DNA from: Fimbriiglobus ruber
GTDB taxonomy: Bacteria; Planctomycetota; Planctomycetia; Gemmatales; Gemmataceae
NCBI RefSeq assembly: GCF_002197845.1
Contig: NZ_NIDE01000017.1
Location: 1,100,712-1,164,711 of the forward strand
Direction of reading: 5' to 3'
Length of the DNA stretch: 64,000 bases
Both the position numbers and the translations under genes were made by a program. The notes beneath the pieces were generated by a model. That model was not told the origin of the DNA. It was given only the letters and a program-made list of their open reading frames with translations, and did no database searches. Positions within the stretch are counted from its first letter, which is position 1, and each line of letters starts with the position of its first letter. Positions 12,272-21,599 of the stretch are shown here, in pieces.

Positions 12272-13049
12272 CAGCAATAATATGGTCGCACGATTCGAAT
12301 TCGTGTCGTCGAACCGTGAGAAGCGGAGAGGTCAGCGGTTGTAATCGGGACCGGTGTTCCGTCGTCGCCGAAAAAACTCGGCTTAAAAGACCGGAACCTG
12401 ACCCCGAACGAACCGGCGATTGTGCAGACAACTCACCGGTAACATGCTCGAAGAAATTAGGCCCTGAAGTTTCTTCTGAACACATTCCACCGGGCGCAAG
12501 TCGTCGCGTTCGTCCGAAATATATTCCTCGATTTCACAGAACTGGAGAGGATTGCCTGTACCTTGTTGAACAGTCGTATCGTGTTGCAGAGTCTCGAACA
12601 TGCTGACCCCCTCAAACAGGTATAAGCGACCCGCAAGTCATTAGGCATTTGTGGTGCCATCAAGAAATGTAAATAGCAAAATCCGCAGTCCTTCGCGTGC
12701 TGATGCCCGTCAAACTCTCCGGACTTGCGCGAAATGATGTGAAAAAGCCGCGGAAAAATTGCTTTCGGCAGCCGGCTTCTCGTAATACGGCATGCCGTTG
12801 CCGCAAAATATCCGGTGATTTTTATTGAAATAAAATAGTCGCCTAAAGATTGAGCATTTTAGTGACGGTGAATTCGTCCGAGATTTGAGCAGGTTGTTAC
12901 GCAGTTGTGTGCCCAACTTCTCAATGTTTATTCATGACCTTACGTCGCGTTGCGGCAAAGTTGTTGAGAAGCCCGTTTCCTCCCGTTGCGAGTGATCGGC
13001 ACATTCATTGCTACTCATTGCAGGGAAACATTCTAATTGGGATAACAGT
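12272..13049. other. Gene-poor, AT-richer segment upstream of the glucan synthase
   Basis: About 780 bp clearly lower in GC than its surroundings. It holds one weak small reading frame (12383-12601, minus) and otherwise no supported gene. It must contain the promoter of the large gene at 13050, but I could not choose one with confidence. A tRNA-like T-loop near 12297 was examined and rejected. Confidence 0.5.
12383..12601 (-). CDS. Possible small hypothetical protein
   Basis: 72 codons from an ATG at 12601 with a strong GAGGGGG Shine-Dalgarno seven bases upstream. The product contains QFCEIEEYISDERDDLRPVE, then KKLQGLISSSMLPVSCLHN, with three cysteines and no membrane segment. I recognise no family. 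The ribosome site is the main argument for it; the AT-richer surroundings and short length argue against. Confidence 0.3.
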   Translation of the reverse strand: MFETLQHDTTVQQGTGNPLQFCEIEEYISDERDDLRPVECVQKKLQGLISSSMLPVSCLHNRRFVRGQVPVF

Positions 13050-16000
13050 ATGGCGGACTTGTCGACCGACTCGGCGGTATCCGGCGTTCACAGTATTTAC
13101 CAGTGCCCGTCCCCACTACGGCTCGAAGTCGCCGGCCAAGCCGTTCTCCTGCAGGTGATGCGCGAACTCGCGGACGCGAGCCGGGCGGCCACCCCGCCGG
13201 GAACGGCCAACCTGCTCCGGCGGTTCCGCGACAACGCCCGGCGCCTGGAATTCGCGTACCGCACGCTTTCGCTCCGGTCCGCGCGCGGCGAGCCCGTTCC
13301 CGCGGACGCCGAATGGCTTCTGGACAATTACTACGTGATCGGCGATGTGGTGCGGGAGGTGGAAGTCGACCTGCCGGGCGGCTACTACCGCGAACTTCCC
13401 GCGCTGGCCGGCGGACCGTTCGGCGGACTGCCGCGGGTGTACCCGCTCGCGCTCGCGCTGTTGGTCTACACCGATTCCGGGCCGACCGAAGAAACGGTCC
13501 GCGAGGCCGTGCGGACGTACCAGGAAGTCGCCCCGCTCTCGACCGGTGAACTCTGGGCCGTCCCGACGATGCTACGGCTCGGGTTGCTCGAAAATCTCCG
13601 CCGGCTCGCCGACCAGATCGTCGACACCGTCACGCACCACGAGACGGCCAAGACCGCCATCGCGCACGCGCACGGCGGTCGTCACCACCGATTGCCGGAA
13701 CCGCCGGCCGACGCCATCGCCGTCGCCGTCTGGGAGCAATTGCGCGACCACGAACCGCCCCCCGGCCCCGGGGCTGACGCCCTCCACGGCTGGACCGCCC
13801 GCCACCTCGCCGACCCGGCCCAGGTTCAGCACCGCGAGTTCATCCGGCAGGCGGCGAACCAGGTCTCGATCGGCAACTCGATCACCAGTCTACGGCTACT
13901 CGGTGTCATTGACTGGCCGGCCTTCTTCGAGGCCACCAGTCTGGTCGAAGCCCAACTCCGCACCGACCCGGCCGGCATCTACCAGCGGCAGAATTTCGCC
14001 ACGCGAGACCGGTGCCGGCGGGCCGTCGAATCGCTCGCCCGCGGGAGTCGGAAGTCCGAGGTCGACGTCGCCCGCGCGGCCCTCCGGGAGGCCGAGGGGC
14101 ATTCGGACGACCCGGTCCGCGGGCAGGCCGGGTGGGTGCTGATTGGCGACGGACGTCGGGAATTTGAACGACAGGTCAACTACCGGGCGCCGTGGCGGAC
14201 CGCGTACCGCGAATGGGTACTCGCGCACCCGAACACCACTTACTTCACCCTGATGACCGTGATGACGCTCGCGCTGGCCGCGGTGGCTCTGCTCGCCGGC
14301 GGTGGGTGGCTCGCAATCGTGGCGTTCGGGGCCGTCTTCCTGCCCGCGAGCGAATTGGCCGTCGCGCTGACCAACTTCGTGGTCTGTCGGCTGGTGCCGC
14401 CGCGGGTGTTGCCGAAGATGGATTTCAAGGCCGGCATTCCCGAGGAGTGCGAGACCGTCGTGGTCATGCCAACCCTGTTGATTCGCCCGTCACAGGGGGG
14501 CGACCTGGCCGCGCGGCTGGAACTTCATTACCTGTCCTGCTCGGACCCGCGGCTGATTTTCGCGCTCCTGACCGACTTCGCCGACGCCCCGACGGAGACG
14601 ACGCCCGACGACGACGCCTGCGTCCAGGCGGCCCTCGACGCCATCCAAACGTTGAATGAACAATACGCGGCGGTCGGATCGCCCCGCTTCTTCCTGTTCC
14701 ACCGCCGCCGACAGTTCAACGAAGCGGAAGGGTGCTGGATGGGGTGGGAGCGGAAGCGGGGGAAGCTCGATGAGTTCAACCGCCTGCTCCGCGGCGCCAC
14801 CGACACCAGCTACGCGGTCGTCTCGCACCCGGCGGACGAACTACCGCACGTCCGCTTCGTCCTCACGCTCGACGCCGACACCGTCCTCCCGCGGGACGCG
14901 GCCCGGCAGATGATCGCCACCCTCGCGCACCCGCTCAACCGCCCGCGGTTGTCGGCCGACGGTCGGCGCGTCGAGGCCGGGTACGCGATCCTCCAACCGC
15001 GTGTTAGTTTCCTGTACCAGACCGGTTTCCGCTCGTGGTTCGCGCGGCTGTTCGCCGGGTCCGCCGGAGTCGACCCGTACTCGGCCGCCGTCTCGGACAC
15101 GTACATGGACCTGTTCGGCCGCGGCACATTCACCGGCAAAGGTCTGTACGACGTGGACGCGTTCGACGCGACCGCCGGCCGGGCCTTCCCGGACAACCAC
15201 ATTCTCAGCCACGACCTGATCGAATCGAACCACGCCCGCTGCGCGCTCGCCACGGACATCGAGGTGTTCGACGAGTTCCCGGCCCGGTACCACGCCTTCG
15301 CCCGCCGCGAACACCGGTGGGTCCGCGGCGACTGGCAGTTGCTACCGTGGCTCGGGCCAACCGTGCCCGTGCCCGGTGGCGGCCGGGCGAAAAACGTCCT
15401 GCCCCTCCTGGAACGGTGGAAGGTCGTCGACAACCTGCGGCGGAGCGTCGTCCCGCTCGGGGCCATCCTGCTGTTGGTGCTGGGGTGGGCGGTACTCCCC
15501 GGGCCGGCCTGGGCGTGGACGGTCGCCGCGCTCGCCCCGTTCCTGTTCCCGGCAGTCATGTTCTCGGTCGAAGCGGCCTTGCACACCCTCGGCGGGGGAG
15601 GCGTCCGGGCGCTGTTCGCGCGGAGCAGGTTTTACCTCGGCAACACGCTCGGGCAGGCCGCGCTCCAGATCGTGTTCCTGGCGAACCAGGCGTGGACCGC
15701 GGCCGACGCGATTGTCCGGACGCTGTACCGGCTCGCCGTCTCGCGCCGCCACCTGCTCGAATGGGAGACGGCCGCCGCGACCGAATCGCGGCTGGGGACG
15801 GGCGTCCTCCCGTTCGTCTGGGCGATGGCCCCGGCGTGCGTCTTCGCGGTCATCGTCGCGGTCGTCGTCGCCTGGGTCGCGCCGGAGAACCTGTCCGCCG
15901 CCGGCCCGGTGTTGCTGGCGTGGTTCATCTCACCACTCGTCGCGTACGTCGTCAGCCGGCCCCGCGACGTGTCCGACAAGCCGCTCGCGGCCGCCGACCG

Positions 16001-19000
16001 CACGGCCCTCCGCCGGGTCGCGCGGAAGACCTGGGATTTCTTCGAGACGTTCGTCGGGCCCGACGACAACTGGCTCCCGCCGGACAATTACCAGGAAGCT
16101 CCGCTCGGCGTCGTCGCCCACCGCACGTCGCCGACGAACATCGGCCTTTACATGCTCGCCGTCGTGGCCGCCCACGACATGGGGTACGTCACCCTCCGGG
16201 AAATCGTTGACCGGCTCGAACGCACGTTCGACACCCTGGACAAGCTGGAAAAACACCAGGGCCACTTCCTGAACTGGTATGAAACGAACACCCGGGCGAC
16301 CCTCCACCCGGCTTACGTCTCGACCGTGGACAGCGGCAACTTCCTGGCGTGCCTGCTCGCTCTGAAGCACGCGCTGGTGGAACTGGCTGTCACCCCTCCG
16401 GTGCCGGCCGTCGCGTTCGACGGCCTGACGGACACACTCGCTCTTGTCAAGGAAAAGTGGGCCAAGGTCGGGCCGAGTGCGGCCGACGGGGCGCGGAAAA
16501 AGGTCGACGTCGCGCTCGCCGACGCGGACGCCGCGGTCCTGGCGGGGACCGACCTCATGCGCGTATTCACCCCCCCACCCCCCCCTTCGCAAGGGGGGGC
16601 TCCTCGATCTTCCCCCCTTGCGAAGGGGGGACACAGGGGGGTTCTCATGCGCGTCAAGAAGTTGGCCGAAGTTCTCGCGGTCGCCGTGCGGGCCGCCGTC
16701 GAGCCGGAGGATCCGACGGGCCGCTGGGCCGACCGATTCGAAACGCTGGCCAACCGGCACCACGACGCGGCGACCGCCGGCGAAGAGACCGCCAGCGCGT
16801 TGAGGCGGATCGCCGAGCGGGCCGAGCGGTACGCGGCCGACATGGATTTCCGGTTCCTGTACAACACCACCCGCGACCTCTTCTCCATCGGCTTCAACGC
16901 CACCACCGGACGGCTCGACACGGCCCACTACGACCTCCTCGCGTCCGAGGCCGCGATCGCCAGTTTCCTCGCGGTCGCCCGCGGCCAGGTTCCCCGGCGG
17001 CACTGGTTCCAACTCGCCCGGCTCACCACCCGCGCAGCCGGCGAGATCGCCCTCGTGTCGTGGGGCGGGACGATGTTCGAATACCTGATGCCCCGGCTCC
17101 TGCTCCCGGGGCCGAAGGGCGTGCTGCTCGACCAGGCCCAGCGGGCAGCCGTCGCCCGGCAGATCGAGTACGGCCACGAGATCGGCCTCCCGTGGGGTAT
17201 TTCGGAGTCCGGGTTCGCGCTCTTCGACGCCGGCCAGGTCTACCAGTACCAGTCGTTCGGTGTGCCCGGACTCGGCCTGAAACGCGGGCTGGAGAAGGAC
17301 CGCGTCGTCGCTCCTTACGCCACGTTGCTCGCTGTCGATGTCGACCCGACGGCCGCCCTGGCCAACATGGCGCACCTCCGGCTCGACGGGGGCGAGGGGC
17401 CTTACGGGTTCTACGAGGCCCTCGACTACACGCCGGCCCGGGTGCCGGCCAACGCCCGCTGTCAGGTCGTCCGGTCGTACATGGCGCACCACCAGGGGAT
17501 GGGGTTCGTCGCGATCGTGAATCGTCTGACCGGCGGAATCATGCGGCGGCGCCTCCGCGCCGAGCCGGCGGTCCGGGCGGCCGAACTCCTGTTGGAAGAG
17601 CGCGTGCCTTACGACGCCCCGGTCGTCCCGATGGAAGGCCCCGCGCCGGAGACCGCGCGCGTGGTCGCCCCCGAGTACCCGTCCCGCCGGCGGATCACCA
17701 CCCCCGACACAGTCGTCCCCCGCGCGCACTTGCTATCGAACGGGAACTACACGGTCGCGATCACGAACGCCGGGGGCGGATTCTCCCGCCGCGGCGACCT
17801 GGACGTGACCCGGTGGCGGGCCGACCTGACGACCGACCAGTACGGCCAGTTCATTTACGTCCGCGACCGGAAGACGGGCGCGACGTGGTCCGCCGGGTAC
17901 CAACCGACGCGGCGGCGGCCGGAGGCGTATGAAGTCACATTCGGGCTCGACAAAGCAGACATCCGTCGCGTGGACGACGGGATCGAAACGCTGCTCGAAG
18001 TGACTGTGGTCCCGGACCAGGATATCGAAATCCGCAAGGTGACGCTGACCAACTTGGGTATCCGTCCCCGCGAACTGGACGTGACGAGCTACGCGGAAAT
18101 TGTGCTTCAAACGCACGCGGCTGATGTCGCACACCCGGCGTTCGGCAAGCTATTCCTGGAAACCGAATGGCTCCCGGACCACACGGCCCTGCTCTGCCGG
18201 TGGCGTCCCCGCTCGCCCTCGCAAAGCCCCGTCTGGGCGGTCCACGCCCTGGCGACTGACGCCCGCGATGGCGTGGTGACCTGGGAAACGGATCGCGCGC
18301 GATTCCTGGGGCGACGGCGAACACCGGCCGACCCGGTCGCCCTCGCGGACCGGGGTGCGGAACTGTCGGGCACGACCGGGGCCGTCCTCGACCCGGCATT
18401 CGCAATCCGGAAGCAGCTCACGCTCGCGCCCGGCGAGAAGGCGACCGTGACCTTTTCGACCGGCGTGGTGGCGACCCGCGAGGCGGCCGTCTCCCTGGCC
18501 GATCAGTACCACGCCCCGCAAGCCGTCGCGCGGGCGTTCGAGTTGGCGTGGGCTCACGCCCGGATCGAACTCCAGCACACCCACGTCCGGCCGGAAGACG
18601 TCCACCTCTTCCAACGTCTGGCCGGTTACTTACTGTTCCCGGTGGGGCCGCTGCGCGCCCCCGCGGCCACGCTCGCCGCGAACACCCTCGGGCAGTCCGG
18701 GCTGTGGAAGTTCGGGATCTCGGGCGACCTGCCGATCCTGGTTCTCCAGGTGCATGGGCCGAACGGGATGCTCCACTTCCGGCAGCTTCTGGAAGCCCAC
18801 TCGTACTGGCGGTCCAAGGGATTGAAGGTCGATCTGGTCGCCCTGTTGGAAAACGCGGGCGGGTACCACGACGAACTCCAGGCCGAGGCCGTCAACCTCG
18901 TGCGAGCGAGTGGGTGGCCGGACCGAATCGACCAGCCGGGCGGCGTGTTCCTTCGCAAGGGCTGGCAGATGGAGGCGCCCGACCGGACCCTCCTGCTCGC

Positions 19001-21599
19001 CGCCGCCCGGGTCGTCGTCGACGACCGTAAGGGGGCACTTGGGACCCAAGCCGAGACGGCCACCCCCCCCCGCGCCCTACCCACCCGGCGGGTCGCCCAG
19101 GTGCCCGTAGCCATTCGTGCTGAGGCGCCCGCGCGGCCGGACGACCTCAAGTTCCGCAACGGGCTCGGCGGGTTCTCGCGCGACGGCCGCGAGTACGTCA
19201 TCGCGCCCGACCGGCCCGACGCGGCCCCGCCCGCACCCTGGTCGAACGTCATGGCCAATCCGGCCGCCGGCTTCCTGGTGACCGACAGCGGGGGCGGGTT
19301 TACGTGGGCCGGGAACAGTCAGTCGAACCGGCTCACCCCCTGGAGCAACGACCCACTCGCGGACCCGCCCGGGGACGCGATCTACCTCCAGGACGATGCG
19401 AGCGGCGGTCTCTGGTGCCCGACGCCCTTACCCGTTCGCGACCGCAACCCGTTCGTGGTGCGCCACGGGCAGGGGTATTCGGTGTTCGAGCGCGTCGTCC
19501 AGGGCGTCGAACACGAGCTGACTGTGTTCGTCCCGCCGACCGACCCGGTCAAAGTGTCGATTCTGAGACTGCGGAACACCGGGTCGAAGCCCCGCAAGTT
19601 CGTCGTCGCGTACTACGCCGAGTGGGTACTCGGGACGAGCCGTGAGGTGACGGCTCAACACATCGTCACCGAAGCGGACACCGGGACCAGCGCGATCTTC
19701 GCCCGCAACCCGTTCAACCCCGATTTCCCCACGCACGTCGGGTTCGCGGCGACCAGCCTACACGGGGTCACGGTCACGGGCGACCGCACCGAGTTCCTCG
19801 GCCGCAACTCCTCGCTGGCCGCCCCTGCGTCGTTCGACCGGATCGCACTGTCCGGGCGCGTGGGGCCGGGGTTGGACCCGTGCGCCGCCATACGGGGCAC
19901 CGTCACGATCGCGCCCGGGGCGGAAGAGGTGATCGTGTTCGCCCTCGGGCAGACGCCGGACGTCGAAGCGGCCCGCCGGCTGATTCGTACTTACACCGCG
20001 CCCGCGATGGCGACCGCCTCGTTAAAAGAAGTCATCGCCCGGTGGGACGCGATCTGCGGCGCCGTCCGCGTGCGCACGCCGGACCCGGCCTTCGACATGC
20101 TCATGAACCGCTGGCTGGTCTACCAGACGCTCGCCTGTAGGGTCTGGGGACGGTCGGCGTTCTACCAGTCCGGCGGCGCGTACGGGTTCCGCGACCAGTT
20201 GCAGGACGTGGCCGCGCTCGTTCACGCCGCTCCCGGCGAGGCCCGCGCGCACCTGCTCCGCGCGGCCCGCCGGCAGTTCCTCGAAGGCGACGTCCAACAC
20301 TGGTGGCACGAGCCGGCCGGCAACGGCGTCCGGACGCGGTTCAGTGACGACTTCCTTTGGCTGCCTTACGTCGTTTGCCACTACATCGACGTGACCGGCG
20401 ACACGGGCGTTCTCGCCGAGGTGCTGCCGTTCCTGTCTGCCCCGGTGCTGGGGCCGGACGAACACGAGCGGTACGCCGTCCCGGCCATTTCGGAGCAGAC
20501 GGGCACGCTGTTCGAACACTGCGTCCGGGCGTTGAACCACGGGTGGCAACTCGGCCAACACGGGCTGCCGCTCATGGGCATCGGCGACTGGAACGACGGG
20601 ATGAGCGCCGTCGGCGTCGGCGGCCGCGGGGAGAGCGTCTGGGTGGCGTGGTTCCAGATCGTCTGCCTGACGGGCTTCGCCAAACTGGCCGACCGTAAAC
20701 CTGACACAGATCTCGCCCACACCTTACGCAGTCGCGCGGAGCAACTTCGTGAGGCGGTCGAAGCTCAGGCTTACGACGGCGAGTGGTACCGCCGGGCGTA
20801 CTTCGACGACGGCACGCCGCTCGGGTCGAAGGTCAACGACGAGTGCCGGATCGACTCGATCGTCCAGACGTGGGCCGTCATCTCGGGGGTAGCCGACCCC
20901 GCGCGGGCGGCGTCCGGCATGGCGGAGGTCATGAAACAGCTCGTGAAGCCGGCAGAGCGGTTGGTTCTGCTCTTCGACCCGCCGTTCGACACCGGCCCGC
21001 TCCAACCGGGTTACATCAAGGGCTACGTCCCCGGCGTCCGCGAGAACGGCGGCCAGTACACGCACGCGGCGACCTGGGTGGTCAAAGCCCTTGCGGAACT
21101 CGGGCGGGGCGCGGACGCCGTCGCCGTGTACGACATGCTGAACCCGGTCCGTCTGACCGACTCGGAAGTCGCGGTCGCCCGCTACCGGGGCGAACCCTAC
21201 GTCCTCGCCGGCGACGTCTACGGCCGCCCGCCGCACGTGGGCCGGGCGGGGTGGACGTGGTACACCGGCTCGGCCGCCTGGATGTACCGCGTCGGGCTGG
21301 AAGACATCCTGGGCCTGCACCGCACCGGCGACCGCCTGCGAATCGAGCCCTCGATCCCGCCGTCTTGGCCCGAGTTCCAGATCGACTACCGCTTCGGGCA
21401 AACCACCTACCAGATCCGGGTCGAGAACGGGATGGGCCTGGGTCGAGGCGCCACGCGGGTTCTGCACAACGGCGTCGAACTTCCGGACGGCTGTGTGCTC
21501 TTGAAGGACGATGGCGGGGTCCACGACGTGGTCGTCGCGGCCGACGGCGAGCATGCCCGTGGTGGCGAACGGAAGCCGACCGCGACTGTGGGTTCGTGA
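13050..21599 (+). CDS. ndvB: Cyclic beta-1,2-glucan synthase-like protein (GT84-glycoamylase-GH94)
   Basis: 2,849 aa, about the length of rhizobial/Brucella NdvB/Cgs (~2,830-2,870). The N-terminal ~390 residues precede a membrane helix pair (~397-446). A GT84 glycosyltransferase domain follows (~465-790) with LTLDADTVLP (~604), GRGTFTGKGLYDVDAF (~690) and REHRWVRGDWQ (~757). More helices lie at ~805-850 and ~925-970. Then come a glycoamylase-type domain (~1330-1510; PWGISESGFALFD, YMAHHQGMGFVAI) and GH94 beta-sandwich and (alpha/alpha)6 domains (~1555-2780), including catalytic-loop GIGDWNDGMSAVG (~2510). In known homologues the first part primes, elongates and cyclises UDP-glucose-derived beta-1,2-glucan at the inner membrane and the GH94 part trims chain length by phosphorolysis. 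ATG 13050 is preferred over TTG 13008. A 90-bp in-frame palindromic insertion lies at residues ~1172-1202. Confidence 0.9.
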   Translation: MADLSTDSAVSGVHSIYQCPSPLRLEVAGQAVLLQVMRELADASRAATPPGTANLLRRFRDNARRLEFAYRTLSLRSARGEPVPADAEWLLDNYYVIGDVVREVEVDLPGGYYRELPALAGGPFGGLPRVYPLALALLVYTDSGPTEETVREAVRTYQEVAPLSTGELWAVPTMLRLGLLENLRRLADQIVDTVTHHETAKTAIAHAHGGRHHRLPEPPADAIAVAVWEQLRDHEPPPGPGADALHGWTARHLADPAQVQHREFIRQAANQVSIGNSITSLRLLGVIDWPAFFEATSLVEAQLRTDPAGIYQRQNFATRDRCRRAVESLARGSRKSEVDVARAALREAEGHSDDPVRGQAGWVLIGDGRREFERQVNYRAPWRTAYREWVLAHPNTTYFTLMTVMTLALAAVALLAGGGWLAIVAFGAVFLPASELAVALTNFVVCRLVPPRVLPKMDFKAGIPEECETVVVMPTLLIRPSQGGDLAARLELHYLSCSDPRLIFALLTDFADAPTETTPDDDACVQAALDAIQTLNEQYAAVGSPRFFLFHRRRQFNEAEGCWMGWERKRGKLDEFNRLLRGATDTSYAVVSHPADELPHVRFVLTLDADTVLPRDAARQMIATLAHPLNRPRLSADGRRVEAGYAILQPRVSFLYQTGFRSWFARLFAGSAGVDPYSAAVSDTYMDLFGRGTFTGKGLYDVDAFDATAGRAFPDNHILSHDLIESNHARCALATDIEVFDEFPARYHAFARREHRWVRGDWQLLPWLGPTVPVPGGGRAKNVLPLLERWKVVDNLRRSVVPLGAILLLVLGWAVLPGPAWAWTVAALAPFLFPAVMFSVEAALHTLGGGGVRALFARSRFYLGNTLGQAALQIVFLANQAWTAADAIVRTLYRLAVSRRHLLEWETAAATESRLGTGVLPFVWAMAPACVFAVIVAVVVAWVAPENLSAAGPVLLAWFISPLVAYVVSRPRDVSDKPLAAADRTALRRVARKTWDFFETFVGPDDNWLPPDNYQEAPLGVVAHRTSPTNIGLYMLAVVAAHDMGYVTLREIVDRLERTFDTLDKLEKHQGHFLNWYETNTRATLHPAYVSTVDSGNFLACLLALKHALVELAVTPPVPAVAFDGLTDTLALVKEKWAKVGPSAADGARKKVDVALADADAAVLAGTDLMRVFTPPPPPSQGGAPRSSPLAKGGHRGVLMRVKKLAEVLAVAVRAAVEPEDPTGRWADRFETLANRHHDAATAGEETASALRRIAERAERYAADMDFRFLYNTTRDLFSIGFNATTGRLDTAHYDLLASEAAIASFLAVARGQVPRRHWFQLARLTTRAAGEIALVSWGGTMFEYLMPRLLLPGPKGVLLDQAQRAAVARQIEYGHEIGLPWGISESGFALFDAGQVYQYQSFGVPGLGLKRGLEKDRVVAPYATLLAVDVDPTAALANMAHLRLDGGEGPYGFYEALDYTPARVPANARCQVVRSYMAHHQGMGFVAIVNRLTGGIMRRRLRAEPAVRAAELLLEERVPYDAPVVPMEGPAPETARVVAPEYPSRRRITTPDTVVPRAHLLSNGNYTVAITNAGGGFSRRGDLDVTRWRADLTTDQYGQFIYVRDRKTGATWSAGYQPTRRRPEAYEVTFGLDKADIRRVDDGIETLLEVTVVPDQDIEIRKVTLTNLGIRPRELDVTSYAEIVLQTHAADVAHPAFGKLFLETEWLPDHTALLCRWRPRSPSQSPVWAVHALATDARDGVVTWETDRARFLGRRRTPADPVALADRGAELSGTTGAVLDPAFAIRKQLTLAPGEKATVTFSTGVVATREAAVSLADQYHAPQAVARAFELAWAHARIELQHTHVRPEDVHLFQRLAGYLLFPVGPLRAPAATLAANTLGQSGLWKFGISGDLPILVLQVHGPNGMLHFRQLLEAHSYWRSKGLKVDLVALLENAGGYHDELQAEAVNLVRASGWPDRIDQPGGVFLRKGWQMEAPDRTLLLAAARVVVDDRKGALGTQAETATPPRALPTRRVAQVPVAIRAEAPARPDDLKFRNGLGGFSRDGREYVIAPDRPDAAPPAPWSNVMANPAAGFLVTDSGGGFTWAGNSQSNRLTPWSNDPLADPPGDAIYLQDDASGGLWCPTPLPVRDRNPFVVRHGQGYSVFERVVQGVEHELTVFVPPTDPVKVSILRLRNTGSKPRKFVVAYYAEWVLGTSREVTAQHIVTEADTGTSAIFARNPFNPDFPTHVGFAATSLHGVTVTGDRTEFLGRNSSLAAPASFDRIALSGRVGPGLDPCAAIRGTVTIAPGAEEVIVFALGQTPDVEAARRLIRTYTAPAMATASLKEVIARWDAICGAVRVRTPDPAFDMLMNRWLVYQTLACRVWGRSAFYQSGGAYGFRDQLQDVAALVHAAPGEARAHLLRAARRQFLEGDVQHWWHEPAGNGVRTRFSDDFLWLPYVVCHYIDVTGDTGVLAEVLPFLSAPVLGPDEHERYAVPAISEQTGTLFEHCVRALNHGWQLGQHGLPLMGIGDWNDGMSAVGVGGRGESVWVAWFQIVCLTGFAKLADRKPDTDLAHTLRSRAEQLREAVEAQAYDGEWYRRAYFDDGTPLGSKVNDECRIDSIVQTWAVISGVADPARAASGMAEVMKQLVKPAERLVLLFDPPFDTGPLQPGYIKGYVPGVRENGGQYTHAATWVVKALAELGRGADAVAVYDMLNPVRLTDSEVAVARYRGEPYVLAGDVYGRPPHVGRAGWTWYTGSAAWMYRVGLEDILGLHRTGDRLRIEPSIPPSWPEFQIDYRFGQTTYQIRVENGMGLGRGATRVLHNGVELPDGCVLLKDDGGVHDVVVAADGEHARGGERKPTATVGS
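16554..16654. mobile_element. 90-bp palindromic insertion with 11-bp direct flanks inside ndvB-like gene
   Basis: CTCATGCGCGT occurs at 16554-16564 and again at 16644-16654, exactly 90 bp apart. Between the copies is an inverted repeat of C- and G-runs built on CCCCCTTCGCAAGGGG and its inverse CCCCCTTGCGAAGGGG. This is the signature of a REP/MITE-like miniature element with a target-site duplication. 90 bp is 30 codons, so the glucan synthase stays in frame and gains a Pro/Gly-rich loop (MRVFTPPPPPSQGG... to MRV again). Confidence 0.8.

Follow-up and report, generated by a model that had tools for sequence, protein, structure and literature searches.

An in-frame palindromic insertion in a glucan synthase-like gene of Fimbriiglobus ruber, with DUF559 nucleases as candidate mobilisers

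Results

An inverted palindromic dimer within a glucan synthase-like gene

The window analysed here, a 64-kb stretch of the 12.4-Mb genome of Fimbriiglobus ruber (G000), carries a long gene that contains a short palindromic element between two copies of an 11-bp direct repeat:

13050..21599, plus strand: host gene, cyclic glucan synthase-like protein, 2,849 codons from the ATG (Pfam)
16554..16564, plus strand: 11-bp direct repeat CTCATGCGCGT, left copy (target duplication)
16565..16643, plus strand: palindromic element, 79 bp, encoding FTPPPPPSQGGAPRSSPLAKGGHRGV plus the duplicated LMRV
16569..16600, plus strand: left end of the element, C-run tail and hairpin ACCCCCCCACCCCCCCCTTCGCAAGGGGGGGC
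16580..16598, plus strand: left palindrome CCCCCCTTCGCAAGGGGGG
16611..16642, minus strand: right end of the element, tail and hairpin like the left end, with reverse complement ACCCCCCTGTGTCCCCCCTTCGCAAGGGGGGA
16612..16630, plus strand: right palindrome CCCCCCTTGCGAAGGGGGG, inverted relative to the left one
16644..16654, plus strand: 11-bp direct repeat CTCATGCGCGT, right copy

The Pfam domains of the host protein (Glyco_trans_2_3, Glycoamylase, two GH94 supersandwich stretches and the GH94 catalytic domain) mark it as a predicted cyclic glucan synthase. Its open reading frame (13008-21599, the ATG being residue 15) runs through the insert uninterrupted, in keeping with the original prediction that 30 codons were added without breaking the gene. 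Pfam places the site in a linker after the glycosyltransferase part (617-842) and before the Glycoamylase domain (1307-1513). The inserted peptide, FTPPPPPSQGGAPRSSPLAKGGHRGV with LMRV on either side, may form a loop there, and might affect the protein.

The two copies of CTCATGCGCGT lie precisely where they had been predicted, start to start exactly 90 bp apart, such that 79 bp of element and 11 bp of duplication together add 30 codons in frame. The 11-mer has no third exact occurrence within the window, and an exact repeat of 11 bp would arise by chance at the element ends with a probability of about 1.6e-5. The anticipated palindrome between the copies resolves into two inverted ones, CCCCCCTTCGCAAGGGGGG and CCCCCCTTGCGAAGGGGGG, of 19 bp each, 100% complementary and separated by a 13-nt spacer, both enclosed by outer C-run and G-run arms that give the element its terminal inverted repeats (ACCCCCC...GGGGGGT). 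Because the left end ACCCCCCCACCCCCCCCTTCGCAAGGGGGGGC is matched by the reversed right end ACCCCCCTGTGTCCCCCCTTCGCAAGGGGGGA, the element is an inverted dimer of a single tail-plus-hairpin unit. Within the window, CCCCCTTCGCAAGGGGG has four matches at up to three mismatches, all inside the element, against 0.59 expected from shuffles; the RNA fold of the element reaches -71 kcal/mol (z = -7.6 relative to shuffles). The 79-bp element contains no stop codon in its three forward frames, and the tail-plus-hairpin unit none across all six.

An orthologue search over 59 genomes, F. ruber included, matched ten. After two had been left out as wrong-frame or truncated ORF choices (G053 and G055), all six usable orthologues lacked the window element, G013 among them, and in five (G003, G012, G014, G057 and G011) the 30 residues align to a gap at the protein level. 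Orthologues without the segment are 50-62% identical to the host protein. The expectation that orthologues would lack the segment thus holds at the protein level; at the nucleotide level the linker is too indel-rich and diverged for an empty site with one CTCATGCGCGT to be demonstrated base by base. The best reading remains the one first proposed, an inserted palindromic element, in frame and with an 11-bp duplication: orthologues are without it, and the palindrome recurs elsewhere. In the G013 orthologue (L045, G013:C158) this linker holds an in-frame palindrome of its own, AAGCCCACCGGTTGCAACCGGTGGGCTT, unrelated to the window element; the two genes represent independent palindromic insertions at one tolerant linker position.

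Related palindromes in other genes and genomes

A genome search for the palindrome, as the original prediction had suggested, recovered further copies in F. ruber and many intragenic ones in a relative, G006. In F. ruber three element loci contain the CCCCCTTCGCAAGGGGG palindrome (the window, C2:993413 and C17:1623072-1623178), with no match to a reversed-pattern control in the exact scan, and a near variant, CCCCCCTTTGGAAGGGGGcaGGGGGGTT with inverted AACCCCCTgCCCCCCTTCGAAAGGTGGG, flanks a DUF559 gene (G000:C8:121222). The CCCCCTTCGCAAGGGGG palindrome is confined to F. ruber and G006 among 95 genomes of the host's family, and among 392 genomes of the phylum it is found in nine, all but one from family f50, which we take to be the anammox bacteria. 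The exact double palindrome was absent from the 98 relatives searched and present in one Planctomycetaceae contig among GTDB contigs. In JAFAHT010000429.1 (L073:1635-1696), a window-type double palindrome is enclosed by a further, longer inverted repeat whose ends resemble AGAGCGGTTTTCA. What is apparently the same gene carries the CCCCCTTCGCAAGGGGG element at a shared position in two genera of a single family (L108 and L112), so an intragenic copy can persist.

A second family in F. ruber, CCCCTCTCCGNNNCGGAGAGGGG, counts 29 palindromes genome-wide, against none in the control, and matches the repeats beside the DUF559 gene on C14 of the same genome. It occupies about 16-18 loci (for instance C1:120778-120867 and C11:15150-15240), about half of them inverted dimers, roughly 50-85 bp apart and with GACCTCACCCCC ends, like the window element. 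The window element is a member of a family of C/G-run palindromes, best read as selfish DNA akin to REP or Rickettsia palindromic elements (RPEs).

In-frame insertion is not peculiar to the window gene. G006 has 34 forward matches at up to two mismatches, versus five in a reversed-pattern control. Elements of the family occupy about 16 loci there, and at least 14 of these are in-frame insertions into genes whose domains Pfam recognises; nearly all G006 sites examined fall in long open frames. Same-frame domains span the element in DUF1501, HD, Cys_Met_Meta_PP, PSD1, SGL, RecQ_Zn_bind and the HAD domain of KdpB, and other copies lie between or beside domains (ADH, FG-GAP/UnbV, PSCyt1/PSCyt2, WD40, sulfatase, hydrolase). 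At L125 (G006:C147), KdpA and KdpB domains share a single open frame, with the palindromic element in the KdpB HAD domain. With all six frames of the unit free of stops, retention in frame is easy, and frameshifting insertions have presumably been purged.

Is target duplication a trait of the family? Direct repeats longer than 6 bp beside the ends were found at none of 45 other family copies, the level being that of permuted pairs, and the 16 loci of the CCCCTCTCCGNNNCGGAGAGGGG family examined gave no convincing duplication, the two longest matches being family-end sequence. These two results rule out target duplication as a family trait. The 11-bp duplication is real, yet peculiar to the window copy, and hence unusable for assigning a transposase family; it may have arisen by fill-in of a staggered break.

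Palindromes beside stand-alone DUF559 genes

Both stand-alone DUF559 genes of F. ruber adjoin C-run palindromes, of two different types. We therefore considered 71 DUF559 loci from Planctomycetota, 50 stand-alone and 21 multidomain, scoring C-run hairpins with an arm of at least 7 nt containing CCCC within 300 bp of the gene. Such hairpins accompany 49 of the 50 stand-alone genes versus 3 of the 21 multidomain ones (p = 8e-13), and stand on both sides of 25 of the 50; their density is 2.99 per kb near DUF559 genes versus 0.46 per kb far from them. When a 9-nt minimum is set for the arm, C-run hairpins near DUF559 genes almost vanish; the signal shows at 7 nt, with an explicit control. The loci are phylogenetically non-independent, most coming from family f50; at 70% identity the 50 stand-alone genes form 12 clusters, all 12 with hairpins. 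The presence of DUF559 does not discriminate palindrome-positive genomes, most f50 genomes having DUF559.

The type of repeat follows the nuclease. The repeats were sorted into six types on their own features before the DUF559 tree was built; on that tree the types require five changes, the fewest possible (mean of 28 over shuffles, with none of 200 as low), and one genome, G277, holds several repeat types, each beside its own nuclease clade. The C-terminal tail of one F. ruber DUF559 protein (CPPSKGG; L084:1471-1875) is encoded by the flanking palindrome itself.

Outside the phylum, 15 of 16 DUF559 genes on plasmids of Deinococcus, cyanobacteria and proteobacteria have such hairpins, 8 of them on both sides, a count made under a relaxed criterion and with no matched control. 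Plasmids of two Deinococcus species (L202 and L206) carry a palindrome-ended DUF559 cassette in the hpa operon, each at another junction, which suggests that the cassette is mobile. The inverted ends of the L206 cassette run about 15 bp further.

The DUF559 profile matches an endonuclease-like structure (PDB 3hrl, 1.5e-35) and a mobile-intron endonuclease (PDB 3r3p, 8e-5), and its invariant residues include E25, D54, E65, D67, G68, H71 and D80; PADLOC matches were weak. DUF559 has been placed in the EDxHD homing endonuclease family (PMC9403480), and VsrA, a DUF559 protein of Caulobacter, damages DNA in vivo (PMC12907096). Neither paper, nor the titles and abstracts of other DUF559 papers, in a search that left subscription journals largely uncovered, links DUF559 to palindromes.

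Discussion

What moves the repeat? We consider it probable, if well short of certain, that the window element is a mobile C/G-run inverted dimer inserted in the linker, with a stand-alone DUF559 endonuclease as its most likely mobiliser. A double copy of the palindromic repeat would have entered the glucan synthase linker at a staggered break, whose 11-nt ends, once filled in, would have yielded the duplication of CTCATGCGCGT; the gene would have survived with 30 extra residues because an addition of 79 plus 11 bp preserves the reading frame and none of the repeat's three forward frames contains a stop. The DUF559 nuclease, of the Vsr/EDxHD type, may cut DNA, the palindrome being copied or captured during repair, and cognate palindromes bound DUF559 genes much as REPs bound RAYT genes. 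A palindrome of the window type beside a stand-alone DUF559 gene of F. ruber itself (G000:C8:121222) fits the DUF559-linked group that we propose. The strongest fact against a DUF559 mobiliser comes from G006, the genome richest in intragenic copies, in which, at 79% completeness, a DUF559 gene was not detected.

The element works like two known systems and is a member of neither, since GTAG and CGTC tags are both absent and its association with RAYT genes is slight. With RPEs it shares a palindrome translated in frame within unrelated protein-coding genes (PMC10969869, PMC3733652), as in the window gene and, with Pfam support, in at least 14 G006 genes. RPEs, however, measure about 150 bp (according to a review) and include CGTC-tagged families (RPE-4, RPE-6), whereas the units here are C/G-run sequences of about 20-45 bp, untagged, from Planctomycetota and linked to DUF559; the window element is 79 bp long, with no CGTC or GACG. 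With REP, BIME and REPIN sequences and their RAYT genes (REPtrons), it shares small dispersed palindromes, single or as inverted dimers, and cognate palindromes bordering a nuclease gene (PMC8266576), but the nuclease is of the DUF559 (Vsr/EDxHD-like) kind rather than a Y1 HUH transposase, and the window copy has an 11-bp duplication. The profile match to 3r3p ties DUF559 to EDxHD homing endonucleases such as I-Bth0305I; unlike these, the genes described here are stand-alone, of about 100-200 aa, bounded by palindromes and outside introns and inteins.

The dimeric architecture, so like that of BIMEs and REPINs, and the presence of RAYT genes in F. ruber and G006 could mean that the repeats are REPs or REPINs moved by a RAYT, the Y1/HUH TnpA-REP transposase, and that DUF559 genes merely insert nearby. 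We judge this improbable. Among 21 Y1_Tnp loci of eight genomes, C-run hairpins lie near six, mostly of other types, with the CCCCCTT type at one, and no cognate RAYT flanked by the same palindrome was found; a RAYT gene of G006 (L224, G006:C115) has cognate-looking repeats of its own, AGCCCCGTTCACGGGGCT, distinct from the C-run palindromes. Neither GTAG nor CTAC occurs in the 79-bp element, and IS200/IS605-type chemistry would not be expected to leave an 11-bp duplication. With few and mostly other-type hairpins near Y1 genes, RAYT finds little support as mobiliser. That duplication, together with the terminal inverted repeats and lack of genes, would fit a classical MITE of a DDE transposase making 11-bp duplications (IS4-like), unrelated to DUF559; yet a MITE should have a target duplication of constant length, whereas 11 bp is seen in the window copy only and at none of the 45 other copies, and no parental DDE transposon or insertion sequence with the element's ends was found in the F. 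ruber genome. We give a MITE origin correspondingly small weight.

The direction of the association could also be reversed, DUF559 genes inserting into pre-existing palindromes, as targets or terminators, that something else has spread. Free-standing homing endonucleases insert where they cut, the ends of the nuclease genes could be favoured target sites, and two tail orientations occur among DUF559 cassettes. We regard this as unlikely, though worth keeping in view, because repeat type tracks nuclease clade, with different types beside different nucleases in one genome, and because the Deinococcus cassettes occupy operon junctions that differ between the two species and carry their inverted ends in both. 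The long C and G runs, and an insert known from assembled sequence, might even suggest low-complexity slippage or an assembly artefact rather than an insertion, but an exact 11-bp duplication enclosing 79 bp of structured sequence, from a family with further copies elsewhere, makes this barely credible.

A mobile, probably DUF559-driven repeat remains our preferred reading. Whether stand-alone DUF559 nucleases and their cognate C-run palindromes further constitute a widespread, undescribed selfish class, mechanistically unrelated to RAYT/REP, whose gene-less copies seed genes with in-frame Pro/Gly-rich peptides, is a proposal on which we find the balance even.

Rickettsia is the best-known source of translated in-frame palindromes, and what mobilises those of the CGTC type has been an open question (PMC3733652). 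With a candidate nuclease found beside such repeats in several phyla, this type of question becomes directly testable. The repeat family would also suggest a function for DUF559, a large family of 'unknown function', and it offers many natural cases of selfish DNA turned into protein sequence. Palindromes flanking a small nuclease gene in many bacteria point to a mobile system undescribed in the searched literature, probably spread by a DUF559 nuclease and analogous, but unrelated, to RAYT/REPtrons.
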